From NCBI GenBank assembly GCA_949825065.1, contig OX463847.1, positions 32,006,115 to 32,070,114 on the forward strand: 64,000 nt of DNA. The letters are read 5' to 3'. Source of the DNA: Odontocerum albicorne. Its lineage: Eukaryota; Arthropoda; Insecta; Trichoptera; Odontoceridae. A model generated the notes under the pieces. That model had not been told where the DNA came from. It searched no databases and saw nothing but the letters and a program-made list of their open reading frames with translations. The translations under genes were made by a program, and so were the position numbers. How positions within the stretch are numbered: position 1 is the stretch's first letter; the number at the start of each line of letters is the position of its first letter. Of the stretch, positions 286 to 61,302 are shown in pieces.

Positions 286-1204
286 ATGAAAATCAATACT
301 TCAACTGACGGATCTCTTTATGTAATATTATTAATATCGTGATTGTTGTCTCAATTATAATTGGATTGGGTATCAGACTTCCTTTGGAGCAGTAGCATGA
401 AACATCCAGATAAAAACAGAAGCTTATTTAAGTCGAAGTAAAGAGCGTCTCATTATGAATTCGCTACGCGTTCTTAGTTTTATGAACATTGTGTATTTAT
501 TAATTATCTGACATTATTTTTTTGAATGAATCTTCTAACACAATGACGTATCAACATGACCCCTGAGAGACATTGAATAGATAGTATTGATGCAACCTAA
601 TTTCTAGACCGTCTAATAAGGCACTGATAACTACAATATTTATATTGAAATCACGTATGTTCGCTGTTTATTTTTAGATCTGTTTACATTTATTATTAAC
701 ATTGTATATAAAATTATGTCTATCTGTTTTGTGTAACTGATAAGCAGACTGAAAGAAGAATTAAGGGATTGGAGCAACTAATCTTGTTGCTTTATTTACA
801 AAGTACTAGAAATGACAAAAGAATTTAAAAAATAAGTATGTCAAATAACCAACTAATATGTCTGAATATAATGTTCTGAATTTGAAATATAGTAAATCCC
901 CCTTATTCTCGGTTTCATTTTCCGCGGTGTCAGATAAGCGCGGTCAACCACGGTCGGAAAATTCAACCGTATCATCAGAAGGTCAAAAGTCGACTACCGC
1001 TACACCATAATGACTACCGCATTCACCTTACTTCATCGATCACCACATAATAAGAAGAAAAATAGGAGTGAGTAAAGTACGAAAAGATTTTTTGAAATAG
1101 AGCACATTCATATAACTTTTATTACAGTATACTCGTATTGTTGTACTCGTAACTAATCTATTTTCTCATTTTATAATTGTTGTTAATCTCTTACTGTGTT
1201 TAAT
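286..1204. other. AT-rich stretch without a recognised gene
   Basis: No coding frame or RNA gene is supported. A slightly GC-richer patch at about 920-1030 has several ACCGC and CGGT words but no recognisable structure. Two TACTCGTA motifs, at 1130-1137 and 1144-1151, lie six bases apart. Confidence 0.5.
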
Positions 1205-1650
1205 TTATAATTAAACACTAATGGGCATGTGTGTATAAATGCTGTAGAGACGCGTGCACGAGTGACAATGTATGTTAAGACAGAATACGGAATAAAGTGA
1301 TTAGGAATGAATGTAAACTTACTTTAATTAATAAAACGAAGAACACTATGAGATGGTTTAGGCACGTGGAACGAATGAATGAAGAAAGGCTTTTTATACA
1401 ATATACAGTGAAAGGCGTGATCGAGGAAGACAAAAAAAGTATTGTTGGATCAAAATAATGATATTTTGAACAAATGAAAAGTAAGAACTAAAAGAAATCG
1501 GAGGAGCTGTATGAGAAGGTGTATGGATGTAAATCACGTGAAATATATGTGTTGATATAGACAAGTTTGGCAATCTGTCATTTCGGTCTACCTCCGCTGG
1601 AAAACGGCGAAATGGTTTATATTTATGTGTGTATAAGAAAAAACACAGTA
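1205..1650 (+). mobile_element. LINE family 1, C-terminal RT fragment and tail
   Basis: The frame near 1345-1390 reads TMRWFRHVERMNEERL, the signature of the C-terminal part of this LINE's ORF2. After a decayed linker, the tail at about 1505-1600 encodes a degraded MRRCMDV-type motif. Stops and frameshifts are frequent. The fragment is 5' truncated, as expected from incomplete target-primed reverse transcription. Confidence 0.75.
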
Positions 1651-4466: not shown

Positions 4467-4827
4467 GACGACTTCCGTAGTCTAGTTGGTAAAGTGCTCG
4501 ACTTCCACGCATAGGTTTTGGGTTCAATTTACGTTACTCGAAAAACAAAAAAAAGGTCCCAGTCTGGGAGAAGAGTTCTACTGATCTTGTACTCGTAAAA
4601 CTTGTTGCTCACACAATAGATTTGACGCTCGTGTGAGTGTTGTTGGCTTTTGACGTAGTATTGTTAACAAGTGCCATGAAAAACCGCGAGTTCCATGCCT
4701 ACTCCAGAGCTTATAAAACGCGAAGGTTCGATTGATGAGACTGACTACAATGTTGTCTACCGGCCACGCTCTCCAGTTTGTTCGAATCACTAGTTTAGAT
4801 AAGTTGAAGGGATATAATTTCATGTGA
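4467..4827 (+). mobile_element. tRNA-derived SINE, family B (long body)
   Basis: The head has an A-box-like TAGTCTAGTTGG and a weakened B box. It is followed by a CCCAGTCTGG segment and a body of about 250 bases that ends near GTTGAAGGGATATAATTTC. The same body occurs at 29579-29883 (+), 52964-53290 (-) and 59251-59425 (-), which defines the family. A TACTCGTA motif lies at 4590-4597. Confidence 0.7.
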
Positions 4828-5100: not shown

Positions 5101-6604
5101 TATTATTATTAGTGTTAGATAAGCAAATATAGGTATTGTATTATGATACATAACAATTAGAATGACAATTTGCTACAAAACAAGATAAAATTAATTTAAC
5201 GAGTACTTTAAAAGATTAGTGATAAACTTTATCGTGCACGAACTTAATATGTATTATATTATCCTAATGAAGCGAATTCCCGGAACCGGAAATATTTTTC
5301 GTTATCAACTTAATTATCTTGAATAAAATTTTCCGAGTTTTTCAAACTGACCTTACGTAACACTCCACTGCATCCAAAGGTTCAATGTCAGCCGTACCAA
5401 AGCGGGAAATCACAATTGTTTGATGTGAAACAATTAAATAGATGGCAAGTACAATAAAACGTGACCTTTTTACCAAAGAGCTTATCAAACAAAGAAGCTC
5501 TTATAAAAAATCATTTTTCAGCACTCAAGTATTCTAGTCAACAAAATACACATTTTGACTTGTGGTTGACATTAATTTCCGTCAACACAAACGGTTCTGA
5601 TTTATGATTGACTTCCTGATCTAACACCGATAATCATGATAAAATCTTACATTACATCTAGTATATGATATACCGAATTAAGGCAAGATTTGATTAGGTA
5701 GTGGAATCATGCTTCAAAGTCAAATGCATACAAAAAAGATATACAGTTGATTCTCAATTAGGAAAACCATTACCTGAATAATCTCCGCTAGAAAAACCTT
5801 TTTTTTTTAAACTTTAAAGTACACAAAATAATACTCCGCCCCTTTTATATAAAAAATGACAGCAAAGAAGTTTGTGTTTTTCTTATCTGTTCGCTTTTTT
5901 AAATTGGTACTAAGCAGATTTCACAATATGGTATATGCTTAGGAAATGTAAAATTAACACCGGGACTAAAAAACTCACCAAAAAATATTTAAATATCAAC
6001 AAAAAAAAATAAACATAAAACTAGAGCACATGGCTAAGTGACGTGAAAATACAATATTGAGGGTATAAAATACGAGTATAAACTATAAATAGTGGATAGT
6101 AAATTAACCGCAATACACACGTGGTTTTAATTTACAATTTGATGCGCTCGCCCGCTTGCAGGCAAACACTGAATCTAAATGTACTCAAATAATAATTTAC
6201 AAAGTCATCGACCTTCTTATCGATGACTTGTTTACAATTTCGCTAATTTTATTATCTATGTCATATAACTAATTTTGCCAGTTTAATTTTTTGGTGCATA
6301 TTGTATTATGTAGTCGAATGAAAAAAAAAGTTTTTTTTTTCATTTTACATAATATTTCGAAATGCTAAATTGAAATCCGCAGCCCGGTTAATTCGACCCT
6401 GGATAATTTAGAACCCACTTTACTCAAACCAAACAACATCAAAATTTGTTAAACTGATGGTCCACAACAGTATATTAAACATTGGTGTATTTATCATATT
6501 TAAATGTTTAGTAAATTCTACACATGACCAAATAGGCTCAATGCCTATTAAATATGAGAAAGCTGACTTATCCACACAATTCACATATAAACCATCCAAC
6601 AAGC
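5101..6604. other. AT-rich stretch without a recognised gene
   Basis: Several homopolymer runs and short frames are present, none convincing. A TACGAGTA motif lies at 6071-6078, and the short inverted repeat CATCGA...TCGATG lies near 6206-6224. Confidence 0.4.
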
Positions 6605-6895
6605 CCGAGCTATAGTCGCTTGTGAGAGATTCCTGGAACTGTGAAGAATATGCAGTATATCCATGAATGACAAAATGCGAATGATGTAATTAAAGATGGG
6701 TCTGAGCAAAAACCGATATAATACTTTGGGAAAAAGGAGCATATTGAAGAGGTTTGAAGATGTTGAACGGATGGGCACGAAAAACTAACTAAACAAATTT
6801 ACAACTTATGTGGAGGTGGAGGTCTGTCCTTTCTGCCTAGTTCAAAATGGATATCGCTTGATGGTATGTATGTAAGTTCAAGTATGTATGTAAAT
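6605..6895 (+). mobile_element. LINE family 1, RT C-terminal fragment and tail
   Basis: Translation in shifting frames gives ILKRFEDVERM near 6740-6775, corresponding to LRWFGHVERM of better copies. The terminal tail ends in a (TATG)n repeat at about 6864-6890. The copy is heavily decayed. Confidence 0.6.
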
Positions 6896-6912
6896 ATAAA
6901 TATGAAATATTA

Positions 6913-7147
6913 TAATTTATTTTTAACAAACACTGTTTATTCCACTTTTTTATGACGGTATAACCCTACCGGTTTCAAGGCTTTCACCTCATCTTCAGGG
7001 GAGTACAAACAAGACTGAAGATGAGGTGAAAGCCTTGAAACCGGTAGGGTTATACCGTCATAAAAAAGTGGAATAAACAGTGTTTGTTAAAAATAAATTA
7101 CAATGTCTTTAAACCTCCACAACGTTAATGCCTTAACTATAAACAAC
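6913..7147 (+). mobile_element. Foldback unit with perfect 86 bp arms, Penelope-terminal-repeat-like
   Basis: Arms 6913-6998 and 7015-7100 are perfect reverse complements (86 of 86) with a 16-base loop. A 47-base unique tail follows to 7147. The unit is bounded by an exact 13-base direct repeat, ATATGAAATATTA, at 6900-6912 and 7148-7160, which is its target duplication. The right arm carries CTGAAGA (7015-7021), GAAAC (7037-7041), a CGGTA/TACCG stem and GTC (7057-7059), resembling the hammerhead-like motif in the terminal repeats of Penelope-like elements. An AATAAA lies further along the arm. A diverged copy is at 16621-16863. Confidence 0.75.
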
Positions 7148-7160
7148 ATATGAAATATTA

Positions 7161-8908
7161 ATTTAGTAATCCGAAATGGTTAACATTTTCAGCTTTATAT
7201 TTCAATATGTATAATTTATGGATCCTACCACGAGAAATAATCTAGGTGTTTGTGTTTTGGACGAAACTATGCCTATGCACACATCAAACAATAAAAGGTT
7301 TGGTTATTTAAAAATAGTTTTATTTTAACGATTATTTGCTAAAATTAGTTTCTTTCGGTGTATTTAACCTAGCCTCAAAAACTGATACCAATTGTCCTAA
7401 TAAACCAAAAGATTAAGTAAGGTCATAGGACAACGGAAATTACGATAAAAAATTATATATTTATTGTGTTTTTGGCACAATGTGGATAAATTTGTAATTT
7501 TACCCTCATTTGTTTGTTTATTTAAATAAAAATAAATGAATATAACAATTTAATAACTAATTAGTGGGAATTATAATACTTATACTAAAAAAACGAGATT
7601 AGTAACATATGTAACCATAGGAAGTCGTTGTGTCCATATTGGACACACATTTTATTTATTGAGTTTTAATACGAATACCTATGAAGGCAAGAACATACAT
7701 TCATATACGTACAAATTAAGGGAAATCTAAGGACATCTCAAGTTAAGTTAAGTTGAGAAGACTGGTTTGAGCCAAATACACTGCGAGAGCCGACGCATCT
7801 AAAATATCCAGACTAATATTCGATTGACTTCCCGCGGGAAGAAAGCCTCTTTATTTTACATTTAATACATGTACAACAACCCAATAACATCAACTATGAT
7901 AAATCCACAGTACAAGAAGAAAAAAAAAGTCTAAATATATTAACAACAACAGGAACAAAAATTCTTGTGTTTTTTCTGTGAAATGGCTAAGTTATACCCA
8001 CAAAGTTTATTAAGGAACTCAATTCTCAATTTATGCACCGCGATATAGAAGAAATCGATATCCGAAAATTCATTCAACAAGGTCATTCCATAATAGCTCA
8101 CTTCGTTAATATGCCACCGAAAACATCTTAATTCACGATGGCGTAAATAATTGTCAGATAAATTAATGAATATATTGTTAATCTACAACAAGTTCGCTAT
8201 TTTTCCCGTTAACAACTTGTATATGTACAAAGAGGTGAGTAGATGTATTATTATGCTTAAGGGGAAATATATATGCTTACTCTTTCAAAAATGTGGGATA
8301 AAAACCAATAGCCTTGTCCAATTAGTGCAGATGTTCTAAGAAAATGGCTGTCTGGAGATGCAATGGAAGTTCGTTATAGATTTCAATAGTTTACATCACT
8401 ATAGGAGGAAGGACAAGAAGAATGCAGTTCATTGTAAAAAAATATCGATTGATTTTATTGCCATATAACAATATTTTACGAATAGCCATAAAAATGTTAC
8501 ATAAATTAGCCACAATTGTTGATACACATATTGCGGAAGGAAAGTGACAACCTTGACAAGCTGATGTGGACTGGAAGTGTAAAAAGCAAACGGAGGTGAG
8601 GCCAAACTATTCGATAGCACCCCTTTGACGGATTGATTTGAAGAAAAGAGTGACGGGTTGCGCGCTTTAGGAAGCCTTTTAAAAAAATAGAAACAGTAAG
8701 GTCGTAGAAGGGGTTAGTCACCGTGATTGTGCTTCTCAGAATTTCAGAAACGACCAAAATAAGTAGAAAGGATAAAATAGAATACATACTCGTAATATTA
8801 AGGCTATGTAAAAGAAACCCTATATTAACTTATGAAAGACACAATTATAATTTTATAGCTTATTTTGTTGTTTCATGTATTATACTTATTTACTCAATTG
8901 ACAATGAA
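7161..8908. other. No recognised gene
   Basis: AT-rich sequence with short frames only. The best antisense frame (8506-8787, 93 codons) has no motif I can identify. A TACTCGTA motif lies at 8787-8794. Confidence 0.4.
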
Positions 8909-9122
8909 CTCTGTCGTCTAATTGGTTAGACGTACGAGTATGTGTTCCATTCAGGAATTGCCTATTTGAAATCCGTTGGCACCCAGATTTAAAAAAAAAA
9001 ATTCCAATCAGTTTTTCTCTTGAAGTTTATTCAAAACTTTTCGGGTATGTTGAAAGAGATTACCACATTGAAATAAACCCGATAGGTTGTACTGTATACA
9101 ACGAAAGAGTAATTCAATACAA
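8909..9122 (+). mobile_element. SINE family A copy carrying a 6-base scar-like insertion
   Basis: The copy aligns along the whole family: CTAATTGGTTAGACG head, CCCAGATT, a long A run, and the CCCGATAGGTTGTACTGTATAC end. After GACG the family reads CCTGTCTTCC. This copy reads TATGTGTTCC, but only once TACGAG is removed. The extra hexamer gives TACGAGTA at 8933-8940. Confidence 0.75.
8933..8940. other. TACGAGTA, candidate transposon excision scar inside a SINE
   Basis: The motif is exactly six bases longer than the aligned SINE sequence at this point and has the form TA-CGAG-TA. This is the scar expected after a TA-inserting element whose ends begin CGAG leaves, as described for Minos. The flanking SINE sequence aligns without gaps on both sides. 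Confidence 0.55.
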
Positions 9123-9757
9123 TTATCGCGACAAACGCGTATACTACTAATCTTTATTTGTTACGAAAGTAGTTCATACATAAAATGTGTAACTGAAATC
9201 ATCTTACATTACAAATGAGTAATCTATTGACCCAATTGAAAAAAAGTTTGATAAAGTGTTTTTTTTTTGTTATTTTAATCATCATTATTGTTATTGTATG
9301 ATCGACAGACAATGAATTTTGTTAATATCTACAATACATCAAGTCAATTGTTGAAAAACAGGGGAAAAGTAAAGAATACCTCATTAAAATAATAAGCAAA
9401 TGAAACAAAACACCTCTAAAACAGCTCTTCTTGGTTTGTGTGTAACAACGTGCCTCGACGTTTTTAAATATCAGTACTGACAGCATTATTAGGCAGTTTG
9501 TAAAATGATTCCACTATTCCACTAAGAGTTTTAATTAATGTCCTCTCAGATATGTCAAAGAAACTTTCTGGCAAAGTTCTAAACAATCATAATGACTATT
9601 CAAAATCTTATTATATACTTTCTTGCTGTACATTAATTATTGTTTTATTTCTGCTGCCAACTTAATGCATATTCATTGTTTTAAATGATATATTTAATAT
9701 AAAATTTTGTGATGCAAGTACAAATTTAACATTATTATTATCTTTAAATATACTTAA
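9123..9757. other. No gene seen
   Basis: AT-rich sequence between two SINE copies, with a few homopolymer runs and no repeat that I could match elsewhere in the window. Confidence 0.4.
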
Positions 9758-9933
9758 GCGGTCTTATTGCCATGTGACAGTCTCTTCCAACCGACTAGAA
9801 AGATGTTAAAGAGGCCTTAAGTGAAAACCAGACTGGAATCCTTATTAAAAAAATCTGGATTCCAGCGGGATTTGAACTCACAACCTCCGGGTTGAGAGAC
9901 AGGCGTCTTACCAACTAGGCCACGGAGATCGTT
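9758..9933 (-). mobile_element. SINE family A, 3'-truncated copy
   Basis: On the minus strand it has A box TGGCCTAGTTGG, the TTGAACTC form of a decayed B box, the duplicated CCAGTCTGG segment, AAGGCCTCTTT, and ends near AATAAGACCGCT. The terminal GTACTGTATAC block and pentamer tail are missing. Confidence 0.8.
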
Positions 9934-10628
9934 AGAGTTTTCAAAATTAGAAGGTTGTATTTTAATCAGTAATATCAAAATTTAAATCGCGTTGGAACTA
10001 TGTAGACAGTGGTGATGTTAAAACTCAAATATATCGTAATTCGAATGAAGAGAACACGATAATAAATAAATTACATTTCAGATAATTGATGTATTTTTTA
10101 ATTCATAAAATTGTTTATAGCGCAACTCATTTACAAAACTAATAAAATATTAAAAATCAAATAAATCTACATAACTATGATTAAATAAAGTAGAAAAAAC
10201 ATTTACATGTAATTGGCATTGCAGAAGTATTTTCATCACTTGTGAAAAAAATCAATTAAATTAACAATATATTTTGTGTTCAAATATCTGTTTTCAAATC
10301 AAATCTTGTTTAATTTTACAAAAAATATTGAAAACAAACCATTAGAGTTTTTGGTTGGACGATGTGTAAAAACACGTATTTTAGCAATAAATTATATACT
10401 TGTAAAAAAAATAAGAAAAAAAATATTAATACCGAAATCTTTGAAATACAAAAATTAGATTTTTATGGATATTAACATTGTCAATACTCATAATTCACAC
10501 CAACTGAAGGATGTTAATTCAAACAAATTGATATGGTAATTCTTATTTACAAATTATCAAAAAAATGGCGCGAAAATTTACAAAAACATAAACAAAGAAC
10601 AAAACTGAAATAAGGTAAGGTAACTCAC

Positions 10629-10860
10629 CGATTAAGTTGATATTAATATCTGTTTATATTTTTTCACCAATCTTCTCGTGGATCTTCTCAAGTAACACAA
10701 CACAAAGCAGCACGTTTCAAGTTGAATGTTTTTATTTGCATTCAACCTTGATAAAGCACTCATTGTTTATGACGACTTGATCCGCTGAAAAGGCACTCAC
10801 AGTAGTTTTGTTTTCGTTTTCAATACAAGCGCAGCACTACGCGGTAGGCGCGTATTTAAA
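10629..10860 (-). promoter_or_regulatory. Possible promoter and noncoding first exon (minus strand)
   Basis: On the minus strand a TATTTAAATA box (about 10853-10862) is followed by a G+C-rich patch and about 200 bases with fewer long A/T runs than the flanks. These end in CG|GTGAGTTA, a textbook splice donor whose intron would begin at 10628. The stretch contains a short frame of 43 codons, which may be an upstream ORF. No downstream exon was recognised, so this is inference from signals only. Confidence 0.25.
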
Positions 10861-12604
10861 TATTAAACAATCTTGTCTATTGGCAATTTATAAAAAAATG
10901 GCGGGAGTTTGTGTTATTATTGAGTTGTCACAACTGTTCAATAGACAATGCTGCCAATCACAACAAAAATAAATAATATTATAATCGAGTAGGCGTTTAC
11001 TTTCGTCTGCAAGCTGTGAAATGAACTGAGAAAATGCTCGGCGCTCACCACGCTTTATATTTGATCTGGAATTTACGCTGTATTCAAAGCTAATATCGAC
11101 TCGTGTTGGGAACAAAGCATCGCAGAATGAGATAAAGCATATCTGCATGTGCACGTGAAACTTTGTTATTGTGCGCTAGTTTACAGAAGCCGGCATTGTT
11201 AGGTTGTCTATGAGCATCGCATAAATATCAATATTGTGTTACGTTATCACATTCATCAGAACATATGTCATTTAGGGACTAAATTAAAGCGCCTTAGTTT
11301 AAACATAATGGAATTTAAAAAGGAAACATAAATAAAGTTACGTATTGATTGCTCTCAATTAACAATTGTTGGTGGAACTTGACAATACTCGTACACTTGA
11401 TAATATTCCTGATATACACAAACCCAAACATCAGACTGGTGGATACAACAGTAGATTTTCAGTATTGATATTCTGGTTATTAGACACAACTTTCAATCCT
11501 TATTCCATCTGAATGAATTTAGTGGTTTAAAACTCTCAAAAAATGTTAGTAGTGACACATTATACTGATAATGAAGATTTCACTCTAGACTCTCAAGAAA
11601 TATCCTCTTTGGTGAGTTAACTAAGAAAACAGAGAGGATAGCGCGAGAAATATAAGGGTATATAGCAAACATGCTTAAAAACATGAATGTTTGACCCTTG
11701 AGAAGGAGCCAAATGGAGTACAGATGTTCCTAGTAATCAGGAGCCCAATGGAGAAAGAAGATGCAGACAAGCTGCATGTACTGAAGCGCCATGCCCTATA
11801 TACAACAATAACATATATACTTATCCCAGATTGAATTTCATAGTCATACATCTCTGGTGACACCAACGACAATTACCCTGATCCCCTACTTTGTACTGTG
11901 CGTTCTATTATACTCGTCACGGATAATGGACATTCATATTTTTTATGGCATTGATGAGGTGTCTTTTATACAATAAAGACGACCTTGAAGTAAGTTTTTT
12001 TACTACGGAACATATCAAAAGTTTTTTTTTATTTAGTTCGCTTGTGTTGGTGCAAAAAATGTAAAATTTTCAACATGAGAACTCTGTATTCCTAAAACTG
12101 TTGAAAGGAGTGGTTTTCTTGTGCAGTCTCGCTTGTATAGTAGGCTGCCAAGAACATTGTTTCTCAACATTTTTACCATACCGCTCTACAAAAAAAAAAT
12201 TTGGACTTAGCGACTCCCTGGAAAAATTTAATATCTTGACGATACATGTGACCGCAAAAATGTTGTACTTACACAAAGAAGATAAACCTTATAAGATACA
12301 TTACTTTGCACTACCTACAACACACCGTCATTAATTACATAATATGTAGATATGCAGAGGTAGCCATTGGAGTAAACGATATATGCATATGGAGGAATTT
12401 ATACATATGGAGGAGTAAACAATATACCATATACAACAATGACTTGGACTTTGGACAGTTCTTTTTTAAAGTTAAGTGACTCCCCTGATATTTCACCACG
12501 GGTCGCAACCTATAGGTTGAGAAATTATGGTTAAAGGGAAATCATAAAAATATTTTCAAGTAGTTTATAGGGTTCCAGTGGGGTGGGGTGTAGTTCAAAT
12601 ATTT
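10861..12604. other. No recognised gene
   Basis: The stretch holds a short inverted repeat (TTGTCTATTG near 10872 and CAATAGACAA near 10939) and a TACTCGTA motif at 11386-11393. A near-miss, TACTCGTC, lies at about 11911. No coding frame is supported. Confidence 0.4.
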
Positions 12605-12745
12605 AAAAGATTGATTATATCGATTACGGTGAAGAGTGGTTACATCGATTACAGCGATGTAATTCAATTTTTCCAAAAACATCGGTTACAGTGAACAATT
12701 CTTATATCGGTTACACCGATCTAGTTCAATTCTTCCAACGTTGTC
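12605..12745 (+). repeat. Two-unit direct repeat of about 70 bases
   Basis: Words of the form ATCGGTTACA..GATCTAGTTCAATTCTTCCAA recur in diverged form about 70 bases apart. ATCGATTACAG or ATCGGTTACA appears four times. It looks like an old tandem duplication of unknown origin. Confidence 0.5.
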
Positions 12746-13144
12746 ATGGATCGTCGTGCGTTGTACTAGAATTAATCAAATATTTTGTATTTTATTTGTA
12801 AAAAATAAATATTAGTGATTGTACATTCTTTTTTAAGTGAGAATTAATAAAACGATTAATTTATAAAATAAGTAATTAAAAATATGGATTATTTTCATAC
12901 TTATAGTATACGAGTAGCTCACGTGTTTTTTTCTTTCTGTTAGACGTTTATTTTTTTGTGGTTCTTAGCATTATTTGTGTTAAAAATGATTTCAATGTGC
13001 TAGTTTATTTATTTGCTGTAAAAATAAGGTCAAACGATAATGTTGTAGATAAACAATCGGTATTATCTGAGTGGTATTAATACTGTTATAGGGCGATTTA
13101 TCAGTTAACCTAATTTCACCTACAATATGAAATATTCCAAACAA

Positions 13145-13625: not shown

Positions 13626-16254
13626 GGTGATTATGATATTTGGAGTCTTTCATGTATTGTAGAAGTACGAGCATGTTTTCTTGTTTCAGAAACGTTTTTA
13701 TAATTTCTGTATGATTTGCGATAATATTCTCCCGAAAATTAATTTGGAGACATTGAAAAGAATGATAAATATTCTGCTTACCAAAATATTAACCGCTGAG
13801 TCCAATAACGGATATCAAAAGCGATATATTTAAAGTAAGGTGGCATGTTTATTAAAATATTGACCTCAAGACGCTAGTATGGAAAGCCAGCATCCAGCTG
13901 TTGACGAGATGGTATGTCCATTTCCTGTATTCTGTTTTCGACAATTCATCACACCCGATAAGTAAGATGCAGCTACCACCTGGCGTACATAGGGGTAGTT
14001 GTTCACAATGTGAACAGTCGTTTCCGCATATGCAAAGAAGAGAGTTAGTCACTCTCCATATACCATATGTATAAGATATGTGTAGTGCCGTGAGACCACG
14101 CTGGAATATCTTAAAATTGTACCAGATATTTTTCAGAAGAAATAACCCTAGCAGCTTCAGGTCTAAGTCCTCAAAGGTCACCGATTGATACCTTACTAAC
14201 TTGTATCTTTATCAATTCATTATTTCTATTATATCATAGACATATGTAAGCTGCGATGAATTTCAGGAGTAAGCAAGAAAACAAAATAAAGATGAGTATG
14301 TGAAATGCACCCTGAAAATTATCTCGATCTCGTTGAAATAAAGAAAACTAACCTTTGATGGGATAGACATCTGTAAAGTATGAAAACCAACTAAATATGA
14401 GGGAAACCAGACACTGGGAATGGAAATTCCTGAAAATAGAGGAAGATATCGTCCAAAGAAGCTGTAAACTGATAGCATCAACCAAGACGTGATCTGAACC
14501 TGATTTTGAAGATGATCTTGGACAGATTACGATGGAGAGAGACAACTCACCATAAAGACCCCAAATAAATGGGAAAATGTAATGATGAAATTTCTTGGAT
14601 TACTTAATTCAGTCAAGTTTACTTTCTTTGAGAAGGTGCTATTAAAGTTTTTTTTTATTATTACTGAATACAAATCATATCTGAATCAGAAAAGAAGACT
14701 CAAGATAGAATGTTGAGGATTGGTGAGGATCCCACACAAGATTATGTACTTCTCCAAACAGCGGAGAAAGTCCAATTTCTTTTTGAGTTTACGCTACTTG
14801 CGATAGTGCAATTACTAACCATGTATCTGTCCTACAGGATTTGTTGTAGACATTTTGAGATCCTTTTTTCTAAGCTTAAGACGGGATTTGAGGGTATCTT
14901 CCTATACCTTTGGATCATTGATGATCGAATAATCCAAAGGTATAGGAAGGAGCATGATCGAATTCAACTTTGTTGGAAAACATATGGTTTTATATTTAAT
15001 TCCTGAAAACTATATAAGAGTCAGTAATGTTGATTTGTTTCGACTTGCAATAAGTAGTGCAAATTAGCTGTATCTTTATTTCGCGGGCTGTCATTTTTAA
15101 ATGAGGTCTCGGATATTGCCAAGTTAATAAACTATAACAATTTTGGAAAATATTGTTAAAGAAGGAATTTTAAGCATTCTAGGTAATTAGGGTTAATTGT
15201 TTCCACGGAACAGGTATAAGACGGAACCATTGTTTTATTCAAAAGAGCATTCATTTATACATTCAAAATGGATAATTTTACATAACAATTATTAAAATTC
15301 CAATTTCCAGAGTTCGTATCATGCATAGTTGTCATGTTATAGGTTAGTGAAAATGTTAAACAATATATAGATGAAGAGTAAGAACACTGATTCTTCCGTT
15401 AATTCAGCAACCATTCTCCTAATTTCTGACATCGTTGAACCAAATATGACCACACCCAAGTCATCTATCATATTGCACTCACGGCATATTCTCACTACTG
15501 GGTACCTGTATTATTTCTAAATATATCTAAGCTGAAGAAAGTAGGCCCTTCAAGAGATCCTGCTGTACACTTCTGTATTTTTTTAGCATTTTAATACCGG
15601 CTTACAATGTATTTGGGTTGAATCGTACATTTAAGTTAAATAAAAACATTTTTTAAGTTGATAAAAATCGTACACACATATGTGAAATAAAAAAAATGTA
15701 AATTCTAATTAAATAAAAATAATTATAAATATAGTTTCTTGAAAATATACTGTATTCAGCAGATACAAACATTCGCTCTGTTTTATAATACATATGGTAG
15801 GACATCTCAATGTCCATATGAGCGAGGTCAGGGCATACGTACGAGTAGGTGTTCACTAAATGAGAATACACAGTGATACTCGGTAGTAGGGTTTCTCTTA
15901 TAAGACACTTTTGTTTATCCCGGTATGAAATCGATCTTTCTCGGGGGATTTCCCGGGATATAATAAATTTTATCAATATTTTAACATAAAATAACCTGGA
16001 TAAGGAAGGGGGTGGTTGATTATTTAAAATATGGTACAACTCCTAGTCATGTAATACATTTTGCTCCATGATTGGTATAAATAAAATAGTATTGATGACA
16101 AATATATACTTAAAAATATTATCCTCCCATTTATAGTACATCTAAAATTAAATGAACACTAAATTTTTTTTAAATTAATTTTTATGTGATTTAAGAAAAC
16201 AATTGCTAATTATATGTTCTGATTAGTAATTAGCGATTGTATATTCTTGTAATA
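13626..16254. other. Long gene-free stretch with one hairpin
   Basis: The longest frame (minus, 13852-14181, 109 codons) contains clustered cysteines but matches no family I know. Plus-strand purine-rich sequence at 14260-14540 looks faintly exonic but has no supporting frame. A TACGAGTA motif lies at 15840-15847. A CCCGG-rich near-palindrome lies at about 15918-15960. Confidence 0.4.
14898..14949. repeat. Perfect 18 bp hairpin with 16-base loop
   Basis: CTTCCTATACCTTTGGAT (14898-14915) is exactly complementary to 14932-14949. The right arm sits between two copies of ATGATCGAAT (14921-14930 and 14954-14963), suggesting a template-switch event. The surroundings show no terminator or RNA-gene context. 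Confidence 0.7.
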
Positions 16255-16620: not shown

Positions 16621-16863
16621 TTGTAATTTGTTTTATAAACACTGTTTATTTCACTTTTTGTAACGGTATAACCCTACCGTTTTCAAGTCTTTCCCCTCAT
16701 CATCAGGGGAGCACAAACAAGACTTGGTTGTGCTCACTTGATGATGAGATGAAAGCCTTGAAACCGGTAGGGTTATACCGTGACAAAAAGTGGAATAAAC
16801 AGTGTTCGATAAAACAAATTACAATGTCTTTAAACCTCCACTACGTTAATGCCTTAACTTTAA
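16621..16863 (+). mobile_element. Second copy of the foldback unit, diverged
   Basis: Imperfect inverted arms (about 16621-16700 and 16745-16824) and the same unique tail as the 6913-7147 unit identify it. The bounding direct repeat is ATGATAT, at 16614-16620 and 16864-16870. The right arm keeps the GATGATGAGATG...CCTTGAAAC core and the CGGTA/TACCG stem. The loop has extra sequence compared with the first copy. Confidence 0.7.
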
Positions 16864-18159: not shown

Positions 18160-18377
18160 GACGATCTATGTGATTCAGATGGCAAGATGCCTGTCTTTCG
18201 ATCCGGGGGGTGCGGGTCCTATCCCCGTTGAAACTCAGATTTTTTTAAAAGGATTCACCCGGCTTTTACTTAAGGCCTCTTTATCACATTTTGGTTGGTT
18301 AGAAGAGATTTCCACATGAAAAAAAGCCTCCAGGCTGTACTGTATACAATGAAAGTGTAATATAATACAAAACAATA
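18160..18377 (+). mobile_element. SINE family A copy
   Basis: It keeps GATGCCTGTCTTTCGATCCGG, a decayed B box (GGGTCCTATCC), the ACTCAGATTTTTTT joint, AAGGCCTCTTT, GGTTGGTTAGAAGAG and the GCTGTACTGTATACAATGA end with an AATAC-type tail. It is full length but diverged. Confidence 0.8.
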
Positions 18378-33915: not shown

Positions 33916-33967
33916 GCATATTATAAATTATTTATGTACCTATATGAATTTTATACATATACTCGTA

Positions 33968-40044: not shown

Positions 40045-40157
40045 CATAAGGCCGCATGTAATAGTCGTATGGCCCAATGTACTCGTATGTGAACGGCAAA
40101 AATACACATACGAGCCGCATGTGGCCTTCGGGCCGCTGGTTACGAACCCTTGTTCTA
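40045..40157. mobile_element. Possible hAT-type terminal fragment
   Basis: GGGCCGCTGGTTACGAACCCTTG at the right edge reads on the minus strand as CAAGGGTTCGTAACCAGCGG, like hAT termini (CAGGGGTTC..AACC). GGCCGCATG words recur inside. No partner end or 8 bp duplication was confirmed. TACTCGTA lies at 40080-40087. Confidence 0.35.
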
Positions 40158-47648: not shown

Positions 47649-49198
47649 ACATTGCGAGGGCGTTGAAGACTTCGCGGGCCATATGCATGGCCTCGTCGAG
47701 GTTCCTCAATACCGCGGATATGTCGGCCTGCGATGGATAGCGCAGATTGGGGGGTGTTACTAGGGGGGGGCGGTTGGGCGGAGAGCTGGGGGCGGGCATT
47801 TTTCGTAATGCTCGCGTATGAGATCGCGGGGGACGCGACATTCGACGCTGGTTTCGATAAAGGAGGGGTCCTCCTGGGGGCTTCTCTGGCTGGCGGGGGC
47901 GCGGAGGGGTAGGCCTGTTTGGCATTTCTGCTAAGAGGGTGAGAGGGACAGCTTCTGTAGTTGGCCGGGTGGTCGCCGCCGCAGTTGGCGCATCTCGCGG
48001 GGGAGTCGTCCGGCTTTTTACAGTCGGACGTTCTGTGATTTCGTGCGCATTTGACGCACACGGGAGGGGCATGACAGCTGCCAGCGCTGTGATAAAACTT
48101 TTGGCAGCGGTGACACTGTCCTGCTGATGTATTCTTTTTCAACTCCTCCACGGAGATCTTCATATCGAAGATGCTGTGGAGGTCGTTGTAAATACGGCGT
48201 CCTTCAGGGGATTTGGTGAGTTTAACAATCACCAATGGCAGGACTTTCCTCTTCCGGTCCTTCATCCTGAAGACGTTCAGGACCGGGTAGTCGAGGGATT
48301 TCAGTTCGGCGATAATCTCCTCGACTCCGAAGGAGGTGTGGACGCCGCGAAGGACAACGAGGAGGGGTCTCTCGCTGTCTAGTTGGTACGTATAGTACGG
48401 TACCTTGAGACGGCTTGATTCCGTTGCTAGCAGACGGTATGCATCGACAGACTTCGTCTGTATACGGAGGTCACCGCTGCTCAAAGCCTTCGATGTGAAG
48501 GGCATATTGGCAGCGTGGAGCTTCTTTCGAAGCTCCGAGTATTTTTCCGCATCCCGCAGAATAATAGGCGGGATGCGTTCCGATTTAGTCGGGAAAGGAG
48601 CGGCTTGGGCGGGAGCCGGTGTGGCTGGAGAGACTGAGCCCGGTGGGCTAGGTAGCCTCTGCCTTTTTTTGGCGGTGGTAATGTTAGGAGCTGAAAGCTC
48701 TTTTGGAGGGCTGTCAGGTGACCTCTTACGACGGATTGGTACCGTCTGCCAGTCCATGTCGGAATCATCCGGCTGGACAGTTGAAGAGGGGCGAGAAGCT
48801 GTGGTGATTGTTATTTTGGGGACGGGGGTGGTGGGTACACCGTCCGTGTTTATTTTGGCGGGAGGGGCCGACGGGGGGTTCGGCTTTCCCAATGTTGACT
48901 TGGGCTGGGCGGGGGTAGGCGCCAGCGTTGGTGGGACGGAGAGCGGGGAGACGACTTTGTCGACTTCCGTCTTGTCGCCCACAAATTGAATTGTACCTCG
49001 CGAGAGGAGGGTCGAGAGGTAGTTAATGGCTTGCGCGAGGGACTTTTTATTTCGAATTTGCGAGGTAAATTCCTCGAGAGACGTAGGGGCATTTTGGGAG
49101 ACCGGGGGGTCTTTTACTGGGAGGACCCGCGTAATTTTTCGCTGCGATCCTTTTTTACGAATACGCCAGTGAACAGCGTCGGCGCTAGTGGAATGCAT
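47606..49198 (-). CDS. Jockey ORF1: gag-like nucleic-acid-binding protein
   Basis: The 530-residue protein would coat element RNA and accompany it into the nucleus. The N-terminal half is rich in Pro, Ser and Thr with basic patches such as RRKRS and KKRQR that could act as nuclear signals. A PRE_C2HC-type domain lies at about 285-350 (LKSLDYPVLNVFRMKD...). Three zinc knuckles follow at about 359-415: CHRCQKFYHSAGSC, CVKCARNHRTSDC and CANCGGDHPANYRSC. The C-terminus is proline-rich. The arrangement matches ORF1 of Jockey-clade elements. The stop lies 43 bases inside ORF2. Confidence 0.92.
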   Translation of the reverse strand: MHSTSADAVHWRIRKKGSQRKITRVLPVKDPPVSQNAPTSLEEFTSQIRNKKSLAQAINYLSTLLSRGTIQFVGDKTEVDKVVSPLSVPPTLAPTPAQPKSTLGKPNPPSAPPAKINTDGVPTTPVPKITITTASRPSSTVQPDDSDMDWQTVPIRRKRSPDSPPKELSAPNITTAKKRQRLPSPPGSVSPATPAPAQAAPFPTKSERIPPIILRDAEKYSELRKKLHAANMPFTSKALSSGDLRIQTKSVDAYRLLATESSRLKVPYYTYQLDSERPLLVVLRGVHTSFGVEEIIAELKSLDYPVLNVFRMKDRKRKVLPLVIVKLTKSPEGRRIYNDLHSIFDMKISVEELKKNTSAGQCHRCQKFYHSAGSCHAPPVCVKCARNHRTSDCKKPDDSPARCANCGGDHPANYRSCPSHPLSRNAKQAYPSAPPPAREAPRRTPPLSKPASNVASPAISYASITKNARPQLSAQPPPPSNTPQSALSIAGRHIRGIEEPRRGHAYGPRSLQRPRNVCASQWLESADPAI

Positions 49199-49785
49199 TT
49201 TATAAAATAAGTTATATTATATATAATAATATATATAAATCGTACAGAGGGGAGGGGAGGGAAGAGAAAAGTCCGTTCACTCACCCGATGAGGAGACGTC
49301 GGTGAACGTCGTCGGGCGTGACACTCGAGCACCGGTGAAGGCTGGAACTGCGGTGTCGGGGGGCCTTCTTTTTCCCTCCTTCTTAGTGTGATGGAGTCCT
49401 GATGAGGTCCAGGGCTAAGATGATTAATTGATGTCCTTTCGGGCTGGTGATGATGATGATGCGTTGCGTTGGAGACACAAACACAAAACACAAGCACTTT
49501 GTAGCAGCTCAAGGGAAAACTGTCACGGGCTCCGTTTACTCTTAGATGGTGAGAGCGTCGGAGAGCGCGGTTATAGGCGACCGTCTAAGTCGGCTGTGAG
49601 CGGCCGAATGTGGTATTTTGCTAATTTTGCGTCCGTCATGTTTAGCCCATCGCACATCGCAAGCACCTCGATCGGACCGCTTACGCCGTCACCCTTTGCT
49701 AACTCAATGTTTGCCACGCGTTTATAGCGCACAGGGGCCGTCCGATCATATGTATTGATAATGCGAGGACCACACAAAGGGGCGT
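49199..49785 (-). promoter_or_regulatory. Jockey 5' leader with presumed internal promoter
   Basis: Jockey elements carry an internal RNA polymerase II promoter at their 5' end, so the first bases of this leader (minus strand CGCCCCTTTGTGTGG...) are the likely transcription start. The leader contains a 68-codon G+C-rich frame (49571-49777) that I do not recognise. A (TA)-rich run lies at 49206-49238 just before the ORF1 start. Confidence 0.5.
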
Positions 49786-51986: not shown

Positions 51987-51988
51987 TA

Positions 51989-52963
51989 GAAAGGACCTAG
52001 GTAGAAAACATGTGTGAAAATCTCCGAACATATGATTTAGATATTTACGAGTACAGCAAAAAATAAATTTGACACTGTAGCAAAATAAAGGAAGATAAAA
52101 CGACAACAAACAATGGAAAAGTAAATATTTCACATAGCATATTTATTTAAAAGCATTGAAAAATCAATGCAAGGTTTCAGCAATTGCAATAATTATTTAT
52201 CTGCACGCATTCTAGAAATTACTTCAATTTGATTACATTATGAAAATGTATTGAGATACTATGAAAATTGTATTAATTGCTACCTAGATATGTACGAGTA
52301 TATATCCGGAACATTCCGAAGTTCGACTGAAGTGAAAAAAAATCTAAAAATAGATGTCACCCAAATAGCACATTATTGTTGATAATAATTAAGATAGTTC
52401 TGATTTTTAATAATAAATGTCGCAAAACTTCTGTAAATAAAATAAGACGCATGCTGTAATAATTCAATTATAAAATTAAAATAATTTCTAAAGATTAAAA
52501 TGAAATCCACATCCTAAGATACATGTGTTGAATAAATAGTCGCGAGGGAAGATTTTATACTTTTGACATTCAGCGAATAGGTGGTGTCGAGGCGGTATTG
52601 TTTTGTTTTATGCGGTATTTAGGAAATTGATATAAAATGTGTTTATAAGAGAAGTAAGTTGTTAACCCTATAAATATTTCAAACACAAGCATCTTTTAAA
52701 AACATAATAGCTATATAACAGTTCAGAAATGTTATAAAAAAAAACCTCTGAAATAGTGCATGGCACAGGTTAATCGTCTAGTTCTAGTATATATAATATT
52801 CTTAGATATTTTAGATCTATTTTTTATGATCCAGATTTCACTATATAACATACCATTTTAATATAATAGACATTTTGAACTTTAATTGCTTCTCTCAGTC
52901 TTTTAGCAACACAGAGAGCCATGTAAAGAAGAATGCTGGATAAACTATTTTTTACATTCTTTT
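51989..52963. other. No recognised gene; two scar-like motifs
   Basis: TACGAGTA occurs at 52046-52053 and 52293-52300, about 250 bases apart. Otherwise this is AT-rich sequence with no frame of note. Confidence 0.4.
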
Positions 52964-56075: not shown

Positions 56076-59000
56076 ATGCCTCGCCGTGGAAGGTCTGCAA
56101 GCCCACCGCCAGCCCCGAGAAGGTATATTAAGTTGTTAAAATGTGTGATGTGAAATATGTGTTTTTTTGTTTTTTTTAAACGTGATTGCAATTTGAATTT
56201 CAGGGCTGCTCCCCCACCTTCTGTACCCGCTAGGGCTCCGGCTAACACTCCGATGGTGGCCCCGACTGCACAGCCCCAACAGCCAAGTATGTTTGCACAA
56301 ATGGCAGCTACTGCCGGAGGAGTCGCAGTTGGATCAGCCGTTGTAAGTATCCATCTCAGATGGTTCCACATGAATAGATTACTAAAAAATATTTATCGAG
56401 AAGTTAGGACTTCACTGTTAAGCAGTTTGTTTTATGACTTTCTTTTGCGTACATTTTTTTAGTCACATTTATTCATACTCTGAAGATTAAGACTTACCCC
56501 GGTTGACCTTTGAACCTTCAAATTGCCCTTAAAATTTTCTTCAAGAATTGCGCCACTTTAGCGACTATTTTTGGAGTCAATTGTGATTGTCAAGTGGGGT
56601 TAAAATCTCGAATGTTGAGGTTATGTTGCGTCATCTGTGCGATTTGACGTGCGCAAATGTTTTGATTTTTAATCGAATGGCGCACGTGACAGTGCAAAAA
56701 TTCATTTCAATATTTTCAAGATCTCATTCATAATAGTTTAAATACGTATATGTATTATCTAATAGTTATACCTTGTTTACTTACGTCAATATTGACGTGC
56801 GAAAACTCTTAATAATGATGATTTAATGTGAAAATAAAGATTACTAATGATTATTAAATTTGAATTTTTCCATTAAAAAACAAAAAAATTAATGCATGTA
56901 TATTTATAATTATTTTTGTTCATGGATCTCCATATCACTAAGTTTTTTCCTTTCTTGTTCCATTGCTATATCTAGAGTGTACTTCAATAGATCTAGAGAA
57001 TAAAGACTTACGTGAGAATTTCGAAATGTTTGTTCCGACTAAAGGTGCTCCACAAATATCTATTGAAATTAGCCAAAATTGTACAATACAAGCACTACAA
57101 TTTATTTATTTCATCTATGGTCAGTGCTTACCTTACATTAAAATCATACTTATATAGTTTTTATAATCATACCATATATAGGAGTTTATTGCCATTATTC
57201 AAGGAAAAGAGAAATCATACTTTTTTGTGCAATCAACCAATGAAATTTAAGCTGTCAAAAATAGAAAGGCTATTACTATATGTTAATTCTTGACTATTGT
57301 TAGCATTTTTAAATTTATCTCAAATCTGGAGTATTACTTGCGCTGTTTTATTTGTTAACTCTTTTTAATAGTTTTATATCAAGACTAATTTTTTTGGAAA
57401 AAATATTAATTTTAAATATTCGAAATGCATCTACAGTTTGGGATCCTCATCACCTCAAATATATAAATAATACAGAAAAAAAATCCTCAGATATCTATGG
57501 TACAGAACAAAGGGCGATTACCCAAAATATGCTCACCATGTTGAACTTCTCATGGTATGTAACTATAGAAGCCTCGAAACGAGAAGGCAATAATCCATTG
57601 CGATATTCCTAATAAAGGTTTTCCAAGGTTACTTTAACTGGCCCGCGATTCTAGACGCACTAAGTTTATATGTACCTAATAAAAATAGCCGTGCAAGGAA
57701 TCACCCTCTTCTACATACCAACTTACAGAACGAATATCATAGCTAAACACTCAGTCACACGTGGTATAGAGATATTGAACCAACTGAATGACACTAGATA
57801 TATTCTCATCACCACCTAGCAGTATGAGAAAAGTCCTGGCTGATATTCTTCCTAACGAATAAGCTAACTCTAGAAGCAGACCCTCTTTGTGTAACAGGAG
57901 AATTCCGTGCACAGTGGGAAAAAAATAATAATTATGAGTTTAATAACTTAAGATAATGAAAAATTCACTGGTGACAAATAAACAATTATAGTTTTGTTCC
58001 ACAAAATTACACTAATACACTTTATATTATAAATACATCAAACATAAAGTCACTTAAAAACTGAATTTGAAGTAGAAGTGAAACTGTTTAAAAATTGTAA
58101 ACAATGAGAAGTATATTTTAAGTGTGTAATTTATAGACAAAAAGGTTTGTTATTGATGGTGACCGAATTTATAAAACTGAGAAATGTTAATTATGGCAGT
58201 AAAAAATATTTTTGAATAAAGACATACTTAATAAGTTGATACAAAGAATGAATTAAATTAACATTTGAATAATTTAATTGGCCGAGATTTCTTCATATAT
58301 AATTAGTTTTTAAATCTATCCCAATTGCCCAACTTCTATGGTATTGAACATTATGATGTAATCATTTGAGTTACACCATGATAAGAGTAAATAAATTATT
58401 TTATAGATAATTTTTAAATATATTAATTAATGGTTTTATATTTTATGATGGAACAGATATAAAATTGTACTTTTATAGACATGTTTAAGTAAAACACTAG
58501 CAATGTTCCTCTTGTTGAAAATCAGTCATGTGATATTTTTGGGCTATTTTTACATTATATGCAAGGAGGCCCAATATCAGAATGTGGACTGCCATTTTAT
58601 TATTTGTTGCATATTAAAGTTGCTTACTCTGTACAGATTTGATTGAGTGTTATAAGATCTCATGTAGTCATTTTGATTGCTCAGAACTTCCCCAGTAATT
58701 TTATTTTAACCAAAACATATATTTAAAAAGACACGAGTCAAAACTTTCCGTAACTAAATTCCACAATAATCTCAAGGAAACATTGTTTTGCTTGCAGAGT
58801 TATGTAATCTTAGAACAAACTGCTCAATAGGTAGTAAATGTTGTGATAGTGAACCAGTTTAACAAACGTCTGGACAAGTTTCTACATACTCGTACAAACT
58901 CAGTGTTGTTTTGTTTCCTTTGCTTATTTTTCTCTGCTCATTGCTTTTATTTATGAACATGACAGTTAAACTTGATATAAATATTAATAGAAAATGTGTC

Positions 59001-61302
59001 GCCAGGATCTATAATTGTAATAATCAGGTCATTAATTTGAACATTTGTTCTTAAATATAGAGTATGATAAATTCATACTATAAAATTAATTATATTAAAT
59101 GTTATTGAACCTGTCAATATTCAATTCATAGAATGAATTTTTGAGAAAATCAAATGAAATGCTATATTTACAGTATTTTTAATTTGATTTCACCATACAA
59201 TGACTGTAGAAGTGTGGGTGAAGGTCACACATTTCTATATATACTTTTTTCACTCAAATGGTACTTTACAATATGTCCAAACTTGTGATTTGTAAATAGC
59301 GTGGCCTGGAGAATATATTGTTTTCGGCTCCAGTAACCGAGCCCAGAGTTGAGAATCACTGGAGTAGGCATGGAACTTTCAGTTCGGCATCACACACATT
59401 GGCAATATTGAATGAATACCATGCCATAACCCGTGAGGAGTATAATAGAAAGCACAATACATAATGTGTGATCAGGGTACCTGACAATGCCACTGGAGAT
59501 GACTATGTAAGCCAATTTGTGATAGGCTTATCCTGTTGCATAATTCAGATCTCCAGGGGAGGGTGCCTATTCGAGCAAATCATCGCATGAGATATACTGG
59601 GAGGAATATAACAAAACACTTCACCTTCGGCTCTTGGAACATATGAACACTCGGACTCTCATACCTGCTCACCCTAATAGAAGAATGGGCCCCTATTGAC
59701 AGGGAATTTCAGCGCGTGAATGTGTACTGTTTCTCTCATCGAGACTCACCTTCTTGGTGAGGGTAGCATTGAGTACATATTTTTCTAAAAGAGATATCCT
59801 GCAAATGGCAACAAACTACATGGTGTAAGATTCACTAAAAAAACTAACTGGTTGGAAAACTCGACCAGATCCCAGTGGATATTTCACAAAGATTAATGAC
59901 TTCACTACTAAATTTCTGACAATGTTTACGTTCATGTTATTTCTACCTATGCTCCCACCATGGATGCAACTGAAGTTCAGGAGTCTTATAACCAACTTGA
60001 AAATGTTTTCAACAGAATTTCTGGTTATGAGCGTATTATCCTTCAACACTAAAGTGGGTACAGATTAAATGGCAATATTACCCCACAAGTGAAGAGGCAA
60101 CAACACTCGCACGAGTGTCAAGTCTATTGCATGAACAAAAAGTCTCTCACACGATTATTGTTACCAGACAAATATTTTTACTTTTTTTTTTTTTTTTTAA
60201 ACATCCGGCTTCCGTTGGGAATTGAATCCGAAACCCCCTGGTCAAAAATCTTATCAACTAGACAATGGAGATTGATATCGAGGAGAGCTATATATACTAA
60301 AACCATTTACAATGATTACATAGTATTTTGTATTTACAGTGTTAAAATTCCAAGTATGAAGGTATAATATAAATACTCATTTTTAAGGATTATTTAGGTA
60401 TACACATTTAATATTGATTGTGAAGGGATTAGGAGATAAATGTATATTAAAATATACATAATCCTAATTGCAAGGAGTTAGACAGATTTAAAGGAAATTT
60501 TATGTTGTAAATATAAGTTCATTATGAAGGGATTTAAGTAAATGAATTTAATCTCTGAGGAAAAACCCAAATACTATGGAAACTACAACTATTAATTACA
60601 TTTACAAAATATATATAGAACTATCAAAAGTGTTGTATTTGATTGTTCTAAAAAAGAATATTAAATATAGGTATTGTCTTTTTTATTCTGTATTTGGAAA
60701 TCTTAAATTTTTTTTGTTTCATAATATGATATCTTTGATTTGTAGCAACTGATAGTTGACTGGAATACGAGTAATGTTGGGAAAACCTTATATAGAACTT
60801 CTATGATAATGATAAATTGAATAAGTTTTAGATCAGCGCTGTTTTGCGACAGCGTCACCTCATGGATGACTTCCCAACATTAAAATATTACTCAAGTGTT
60901 CTCTTAAAAATATAGGCTATAAATTGCTCAAACCCAAAAGCAAGTTCATTCGACAGCAGTCATCTAGTTGTGGAATGTACTTCTTATCGGTTAGCAATCT
61001 TAAAAATAACAGTATACAATTTTCTTATACATCCCAATATTCTTTATTTTCAGGGCCACGTAGCAGGTCACGCTTTGACTGGTATGTTCAGCGGAGGCTC
61101 TGATGCCCCAGCCCACGAGCAACAAGCAGCAGCCCCTGCCCAGCAGTACCAGGCACATCCAGGAGCGTCAGAGCCTCAGGGTCCCTGTGCTTGGGAGATC
61201 AAGCAGTTCCTGCAGTGTGCGCAGGGACAGTCTGATCTCACTTTGTGTGAGGGCTTCAACGAAGCCCTCCGACAGTGCAAAGTTTCGAACCGTATGTTCT
61301 AA
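56076..61302 (+). CDS. Chchd2: CHCHD2/CHCHD10-family mitochondrial twin CX9C protein (three exons)
   Basis: Exons are 56076-56122, 56204-56342 and 61054-61302. The introns (81 and 4711 bases) are GT-AG, and the joined frame gives 144 residues. The N-terminus is Arg- and Pro-rich ([16 protein letters not shown]), like a mitochondrial presequence. Residues 45-77 form the conserved Ala/Gly-rich hydrophobic segment ([18 protein letters not shown], then [15 protein letters not shown]). Cys107, 117, 127 and 137 form the twin CX9C motif, spaced exactly nine residues apart, with the family words EIKQFLQCA and [14 protein letters not shown]9C proteins are imported and oxidised by MIA40 into the intermembrane space. 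This family supports cristae, the MICOS complex and respiration, and human CHCHD2 can also act in the nucleus. The sequence does not separate CHCHD2 from CHCHD10; many insects have a single main member. Confidence 0.95.
57340..57830 (+). mobile_element. LINE RT C-terminal remnant in Chchd2 intron 2
   Basis: One frame reads [20 protein letters not shown] and [14 protein letters not shown], the A..VWDPH...I..LE motif of several LINE C-termini. A later frame reads [20 protein letters not shown] then [11 protein letters not shown], matching the closing W.NQLP region. Frameshifts make it dead. Confidence 0.6.
59251..59425 (-). mobile_element. SINE family B body in Chchd2 intron 2
   Basis: Minus strand: AGTTCCATGCCTACTCCAG, TTACTGGAGCC, CAGGCCACGC and GTACCATTTGAG, in the order of family B bodies. 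The tRNA head is missing. Confidence 0.6.
59560..60085 (+). mobile_element. LINE endonuclease remnant in Chchd2 intron 2
   Basis: Frames show FTFGSWN near 59620, [24 protein letters not shown] sequence, and [38 protein letters not shown] near 59930-60045. The order (TWNVRTL, INDRLM, STYAPTM, LGDFN.RVG) is that of the APE endonuclease of an insect LINE. The LGDFN motif is lost. It is the only endonuclease piece outside the Jockey copy. Confidence 0.7.
60198..60282 (-). mobile_element. SINE head fragment in Chchd2 intron 2
   Basis: Minus strand CATTGTCTAGTTGATAAGA and GGATTCAATTCCC are the A- and B-box regions. A T18 run at about 60183-60200 adjoins it. Confidence 0.6.

Follow-up and report, generated by a model that had tools for sequence, protein, structure and literature searches.

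A stretch of 64,000 nucleotides from the trichopteran Odontocerum albicorne (assembly GCA_949825065.1, contig OX463847.1, positions 32,006,115 to 32,070,114, forward strand; hereafter the window, with positions given on its full length) raises the question of what has scattered one eight-base word, TACTCGTA or its reverse complement TACGAGTA, through it so many times. The word has the form TA-CTCG-TA, and an earlier sequence-only reading took it for the excision scar of a Minos-type transposon. Here we report that the octamer is mostly a 6-bp insertion at TA, and we hold it very probable that most octamers outside tandem arrays are the repaired excision gaps of a young, abundant mariner-like element of Mos1 type.

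Exact matching located 38 octamers in the window, 14 of them inside a 35-bp satellite or at its edge (starts spanning 33230-33896) and 24 outside it, all 24 at the starts given in the sequence-only reading. Each octamer listed below is an exact match.

1130 to 1137, plus strand: scar octamer TACTCGTA
1144 to 1151, plus strand: scar octamer TACTCGTA, 14 bp from the one above
4590 to 4597, plus strand: scar octamer
6071 to 6078, minus strand: scar octamer
8787 to 8794, plus strand: scar octamer
8933 to 8940, minus strand: scar octamer
11386 to 11393, plus strand: scar octamer
12909 to 12916, minus strand: scar octamer
15840 to 15847, minus strand: scar octamer
23973 to 23980, minus strand: scar octamer
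26249 to 26256, plus strand: scar octamer
27762 to 27769, minus strand: scar octamer
33146 to 33903 (33146-33884 by the repeat finder), no strand assigned: 35-bp satellite of about 20 units, most with the octamer; 14 octamers inside or abutting
33960 to 33967, plus strand: scar octamer beside the satellite
34845 to 34852, plus strand: scar octamer within a repeat resembling a short interspersed nuclear element (SINE), with empty-form paralogs
36328 to 36335, minus strand: scar octamer
37048 to 37055, plus strand: scar octamer
38556 to 38563, minus strand: scar octamer
39490 to 39497, plus strand: scar octamer
40080 to 40087, plus strand: scar octamer
42045 to 42052, plus strand: scar octamer
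52046 to 52053, minus strand: scar octamer
52293 to 52300, minus strand: scar octamer
58887 to 58894, plus strand: scar octamer
60766 to 60773, minus strand: scar octamer

Outside the satellite, Markov models of orders 0-3 expect 1.5-2.4 octamers (1.5-1.8 under orders 1-3), close to the two or three that the sequence-only reading had allowed for chance, and the observed 24 has a Poisson P of 4e-19 against an expectation of 1.8. Under all three of orders 1-3 the octamer has the highest z-score of any word with at least 8 copies. The expectation rises to 3.2, 8.4 and 17 under orders 4, 5 and 6 because these models are trained on the octamer itself. Among the 32 words of the form TA-N4-TA with three G/C in the middle, the octamer occurs 24 times in the window, the runner-up 9 times, and the 31 others average 1.7. 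Spacing of the octamers is random-like, with a coefficient of variation of 1.00.

The same excess is found beyond the window. Twenty further 10-kb stretches (L009-L028), whose positions were picked regardless of the octamer, together hold 63 octamers against 3.8-4.6 expected, with none in 3 of the 20. Whole-assembly counts covered 1,287,057,991 bases in 1241 contigs of a single assembly. In these 1.287 Gb the octamer occurs 381,502 times (190,749 + 190,753 by strand), compared with 30,151 (15,070 + 15,081) for a control word, the octamer read backwards, a ratio of 12.7 with the strands equal. This strong enrichment was the outcome anticipated by the sequence-only reading. The total takes in some copies in tandem arrays, as judged by eye among the rows listed, and about 350,000 octamers remain once a background derived from the samples is subtracted.

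The 14 satellite octamers are probably one or a few scars amplified with the repeat unit and not 14 separate events. Other octamer-bearing arrays occur at L016:723-915 (64-bp spacing) and, among the genome-wide rows listed, at spacings of 33, 52, 66 and 99 bp, as if scars were often amplified in tandem.

Words one letter away from the octamer are barely above expectation, at 47 against ~46 in the window (summed by hand) and 179 against 157-172 in the pooled 263 kb of the window and L009-L028. The near-misses that the sequence-only reading had regarded as many older, mutated scars are thus mostly chance words. In the same pooled set TACACGTA is mildly over-represented (15 versus 7-8), and so is TACTTGTA (22 versus 13-15), the latter in keeping with scars that decay by C-to-T changes. 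The majority of partial scars examined, TACTCTA and TACGATA among them, are near expectation, and TACTGTA, TATGTA and TACTTA are somewhat over it. A search of the window against Rfam gave no match.

That the octamer is an insertion follows from comparison with repeat paralogs. Each octamer was reduced to a single TA, and the form that aligned better with paralogs, by a margin of at least 8 bits, was scored as empty or full. In the full set of 288 kb, which includes eight stretches picked because each carries two octamers (L001-L008), 22 of the 113 octamers tested were informative, with 11 matching the empty form, 7 the full form and 4 neither. This is contrasted by 787 control TA-N4-TA sites with at least 2 G/C in the middle, where 183 were informative and 9 preferred the empty and 153 the full form (Fisher P 1.4e-7). 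On 228 kb, an earlier run had 11 informative octamers, 7 of them empty and 2 full, and 127 informative controls, of which 10 were empty and 101 full. Two strict runs tested 23 of the 24 octamers of the window (that at 33960 falls within the masked satellite margin), and the octamer at 34845 alone was informative. Only its empty form aligns across the site with paralogs at 4967-4894 (minus strand), 18289-18363 and others elsewhere; a looser threshold brings up a weaker full-form match (38 versus 68 bits). Exact 6-bp empty sites, with one TA kept, were found for L017:3912 in three paralogs, and an exact 6-bp empty site for L025:3964 in a closely similar repeat in L007. At the same place in two repeat copies one carries TACTCGTA and the other TACGAGTA (L009:7723 and L028:3208); these could be two events or both repair outcomes of one.

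A fixed target allowed insertions to be counted genome-wide. An abundant palindromic repeat (TAACCCTACCGGTTTCAAGG...) is present in the window at 6909-7104 and 16638-16806, with inverted arms 99% and 89% complementary, and its empty site reads GGTAGGGTTATACCGT. Ten matches to its 16-bp core in a 264-kb sample extrapolate to ~49,000 empty sites in the genome. At the fixed TA of this repeat, 41 four-letter inserts between two TAs were found genome-wide and the reversed control gave 0. Twenty-eight of the 41 are the octamer, divided equally between CTCG (14) and CGAG (14). Others are one letter off (CCCG 2, CTAG 2, CGCG 1, CACG 1) and seven are unrelated. From the mean hit rate, the site preference described below and the 10 empty sites in the sample, ~36 scars would be predicted here, against 28 exact ones found. 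The empty sites, the fixed-TA inserts and the CGAG ends described below all bear out the sequence-only proposal of an excision-type scar, in which TA, four terminal bases and TA stand where a TA stood before.

The flanks of the octamer, joined across the insertion, carry an A-Y-A-TA-T-R-T palindrome that is confined to 3 bp on each side (87 pooled sites). Relative to all TAs, octamer sites have A at position -3 in 62% versus 37%, T or C at -2 in 74% versus 51%, and A at -1 in 62% versus 37%, whereas positions -4 to -8 of the 87 sites, both sides pooled, show nothing notable. Unpooled counts on 71 sites gave the same preference on each side. A palindromic A/T target, ATATATAT, is reported for Tc1-like elements (PMC7913693). 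As a further check, double scars (TACTCGTACTCGTA) occur 935 times genome-wide compared with 62 for the control; were the TAs of scars hit again at the average rate, 1,207 would be expected.

Which element left these insertions was addressed by searching for CGAG-ended inverted repeats. In the first 228 kb, just two TA-flanked inverted repeats have a CGAG end and at least 20 of 24 positions matching, L019:4463-5394 and L015:6760-7593; six weaker pairs, with 16-17 of 24 matching, look like chance or octamers. The second end of these mariner copies differs, which hid them from a first test for CGAG-ended inverted repeats. Both L019 and L015 also have TA at the second end, which no search had required. 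The element's terminal inverted repeats of ~30 bp run CGAGGC(A/G)TATCC, and within L019 they are 91% identical over 33 aligned bases, the flanking ATA included. In L019 there is in addition a 2-kb stretch between perfect 20-bp inverted repeats next to TA (6133-8140), perhaps part of a different element.

A genome-wide pattern, in which the inner terminal repeat was fixed, the four outer bases were free and an adjacent TA was required, matched 13,340 exact ends and 0 for the control. Among the first 100 ends listed, 70 begin CGAG, 18 CTAT, 6 CTAG and 6 otherwise, and the pairs visible among them lie 0.87-1.34 kb apart (by eye). Seven pairs were fetched, five of them CGAG/CGAG, one CGAG/TGAG and one CGAG/CTAT. 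The copy L031 (1332 bp) contains an open frame of 354 residues from a methionine that matches the Pfam families Transposase_1 (E 2.8e-24) and HTH_48 (E 1.2e-6), and its best solved relative is the Mos1 transposase (PDB 3hos, E 3.9e-47, residues 5-352). On the translation, 34 residues separate the second and third aspartates by eye, a D,D34D spacing, with the catalytic aspartates taken to be those that correspond to Mos1. TA flanks, ~30-bp repeats, a Mos1-like transposase and the D,D34D spacing are thus all present in the element, the transposase in one copy (L031). Judged from these sequence features, the CGAG-ended element is mariner-like and of Mos1 type. Some copies with CTAT in place of CGAG at one end, many of them ~960 bp long (L033, and the 18 of the first 100 listed ends), may be harder to excise cleanly, their ends being unable to anneal as CGAG does.

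The exact ends correspond to ~7,000-13,000 copies that keep an exact sequence at one end or both, and two copies in a ~200-kb sample would give ~13,000 with wide error. Against these estimates ~350,000 scars represent a ~27- to 50-fold excess, a rough ratio as older, mutated copies are left out of the copy estimate. The sequence-only reading is supported in that the scars fit a TA-targeting, CGAG-ended element of the Tc1/mariner superfamily and that the window holds no element, as inverted-repeat and TACGAG searches rejected any CGAG-ended element inside it. Its choice of Minos is not supported, the abundant CGAG-ended family found being a Mos1-type mariner, and its picture of heavy activity followed by loss is contradicted by the 13,340 exact ends that remain.

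Octamer sides and element ends share the same context, since ATA precedes TA at 3,457 of the 13,340 element ends (25.9%) and on 24.1% of the sides of 87 octamers, versus 5.7% of all TAs; octamers do not differ from element ends (P 0.67) and differ from background (P 1e-15). We propose that the element inserts at TA in the A-Y-A-TA-T-R-T context and duplicates the TA; for scars the insertion and context are observed, while for the element itself the TA duplication is suggested by a few copies. From the scar and end sequences, the transposase would excise the element so that 5'-CGAG-3' of each end is left as a 3' overhang. Two such overhangs could anneal through outer C-G and G-C pairs around an inner G.A/A.G tandem mismatch, and tandem G.A/A.G within CGAG is unusually stable. 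Repair of the mismatches toward either strand would yield TA-CGAG-TA or TA-CTCG-TA in equal numbers, as in the 14:14 division observed at one site. Were the two mismatches repaired toward different strands, CGCG or CTAG would result, and these were found once and twice at the fixed TA; in the pooled sample the CGCG word is hinted at (4 versus 1.5-1.9) and the CTAG word is not in excess (5 versus 2.8-4.3). The inert scars would then stay and pile up along the lineage as elements move on. Excision footprints of 2-4 bp are given for Tc1/mariner elements in PMC7913693, and their origin from short 3' overhangs in PMC3878927.

The scars and the element appear to be of similar age. Nine element copies differ pairwise by 3.57% pooled (36 pairs, aligned segments of 100 columns or more, gaps excluded), or ~1.8% per copy. 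The near-miss excess of 7-22 per ~81 exact octamers in 263 kb corresponds to roughly 1-3.5% per site (by hand), and on 203 kb to 2.3-4.4%. Both kinds of age estimate are rough, and the small near-miss excess fits the divergence of the copies, which suggests similar youth. Long steady accumulation with decay was rejected, as it would give a one-mismatch excess about equal to the exact count and not 7-22 against ~81. At an insect mutation rate of 2.9e-9 per site per generation, a lineage would have to gain ~0.02-0.06 scars in each generation to reach 350,000 within the age of the burst, equal to 2-6 per million copies per generation at 10,000 copies. Extreme activity is therefore not needed, just a long run with uniform repair.

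Several observations weigh against assigning the scars to this element. No element copy is present in the window or in 18 of the 20 sampled stretches, apart from a 51-bp fragment of 76% identity in L027, and no locus was seen with the element in one copy and a scar in another, in the single assembly analyzed. The TA beside the seven fetched copies was demanded by the search pattern and so is not independent evidence, and the site preference is common to many Tc1/mariner families. Ends beginning CTAT or CTAG make up 24 of the 100 listed, with no clear enrichment of the corresponding scars (TACTATTA 18 versus 18-22; TACTAGTA 5 versus 2.8-4.3). Mos1 leaves 3 bp, not 4, and the 3-base footprint TACGATA/TATCGTA is not enriched here (28 versus 29.9 expected). 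By eye, two tandem arrays account for at least 20 of the 100 double scars listed, and the 41 fixed-TA inserts, spread over many contigs, may include one event copied with its flanking DNA. Among the seven of 22 informative octamers that fit the full form, those at L012:1018 and L024:9738 were copied along with their repeat, that at L014:1904 arose through substitution in a tandem array, and those at L025:884, L027:2169, L027:2182 and L028:3208 are unexplained.

Of the other sources considered, short non-autonomous relatives of the same mariner-like family (miniature inverted-repeat transposable elements, MITEs), nearly all of them excised, survive best and are still improbable. They would account for the large excess of scars over surviving copies, and shortened copies of 0.87-0.98 kb are common by eye among the end pairs listed. 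On the other hand, the search of 228 kb yielded no CGAG-ended MITE, and TACGAG outside octamers shows no excess (60 versus 61-71 expected).

Lower still we place Minos itself, or another Tc1-like CGAG-ended element now rare or lost. Minos, from Drosophila hydei, is Tc1-like, has CGAG ends and leaves TA, four bases and TA as its footprint, the very word seen here. Its inverted repeats begin CGAGCCCC, unlike the CGAGGC(A/G)TATCC of the Mos1-type element. Tc1-like elements are described as typically inserting at TA with such a site preference (PMC7913693). Yet TACGAGCCCC is found at none of the 51 TACGAG contexts that lie outside octamers in the first 228 kb, the only well-matched CGAG inverted repeats there are the mariner-like copies, and that family is both abundant and age-matched to the scars. 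A contribution of Minos to the scars is thus unlikely.

We give very little credence to developmental removal, in which the germ line would keep the elements, a mariner transposase would excise them, and an assembly from body tissue would show the scars. If only exact ends could be excised, this would explain the rarity of near-miss scars. In a milder form, host repair may nearly always join the ends through annealed CGAG overhangs, which may make the transposon a recorder of individual jumps across the genome.

A host motif, for instance a protein-binding site maintained or spread through selection, was rejected and is hardly credible. The word is exact, has few near-misses and occurs in satellites too, but there are ~350,000 copies over background with random spacing in the window, and they were gained in repeats as 6-bp insertions at TA, with a transposase-type palindrome outside the word and both orientations equal (14:14) at one fixed site. 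An artefact of composition or satellites, suggested by the 14 copies in or beside the satellite and by tandem-array copies elsewhere, was rejected as next to impossible on the Markov models, the genome-wide count with its matching excess in the 20 other stretches together, and the fixed-TA inserts.

Two other features of the window lie near octamers or in a gap between them. A long interspersed nuclear element (LINE) at 44883-49216 (minus strand), with open frames of 940 residues (endonuclease and reverse transcriptase) and 536 residues (PRE_C2HC), carries no octamer and sits in a 10-kb octamer gap; such an element would suit an insect genome. An open frame with a CHCH domain by Pfam lies at 60916-61302 (plus strand), with the octamer at 60766 just upstream, and is perhaps, by resemblance, a CHCHD2-like gene.

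The proposed source resembles Mos1-type mariner elements in its TA target, longest copies of ~1.3 kb, short inverted repeats, D,D34D Mos1-like transposase and a footprint made of terminal bases. It differs from Mos1 in leaving four bases, CGAG or CTCG, and in scars that seem far more numerous than copies. Scars of TA-targeting elements have been studied in rice through filled and empty sites (PMC4423477), and excision footprints of mariner/Stowaway elements in Triticeae (PMC1925063). In the rice study, 8 of 94 excisions were perfect, all superfamilies together, and mariner insertions exceed excisions slightly more than 2:1 (PMC4423477); unlike this, ~350,000 occurrences of a uniform scar stand here beside an estimated 7,000-13,000 element copies. 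The titles and abstract openings of the literature surveyed report neither a scar of this sequence nor scarring on such a scale. Literature matches to the octamer string or its complement, among those listed, are apparently unrelated, and footprint terms are absent from PMC2999598.

Cut-and-paste excision is often ragged, and past movement is therefore mostly judged from surviving copies. If the Mos1-type mariner-like element is indeed the source, one countable 6-bp scar would record ~350,000 excisions in this genome against 7,000-13,000 surviving copies, and would give a direct handle on the number of mariner jumps, their choice of site, the outcome of repair and their timing. As each million copies need make no more than a few jumps in a generation, similar hidden records may exist in other genomes, where they could be sought as over-represented TA-N(2-4)-TA words.

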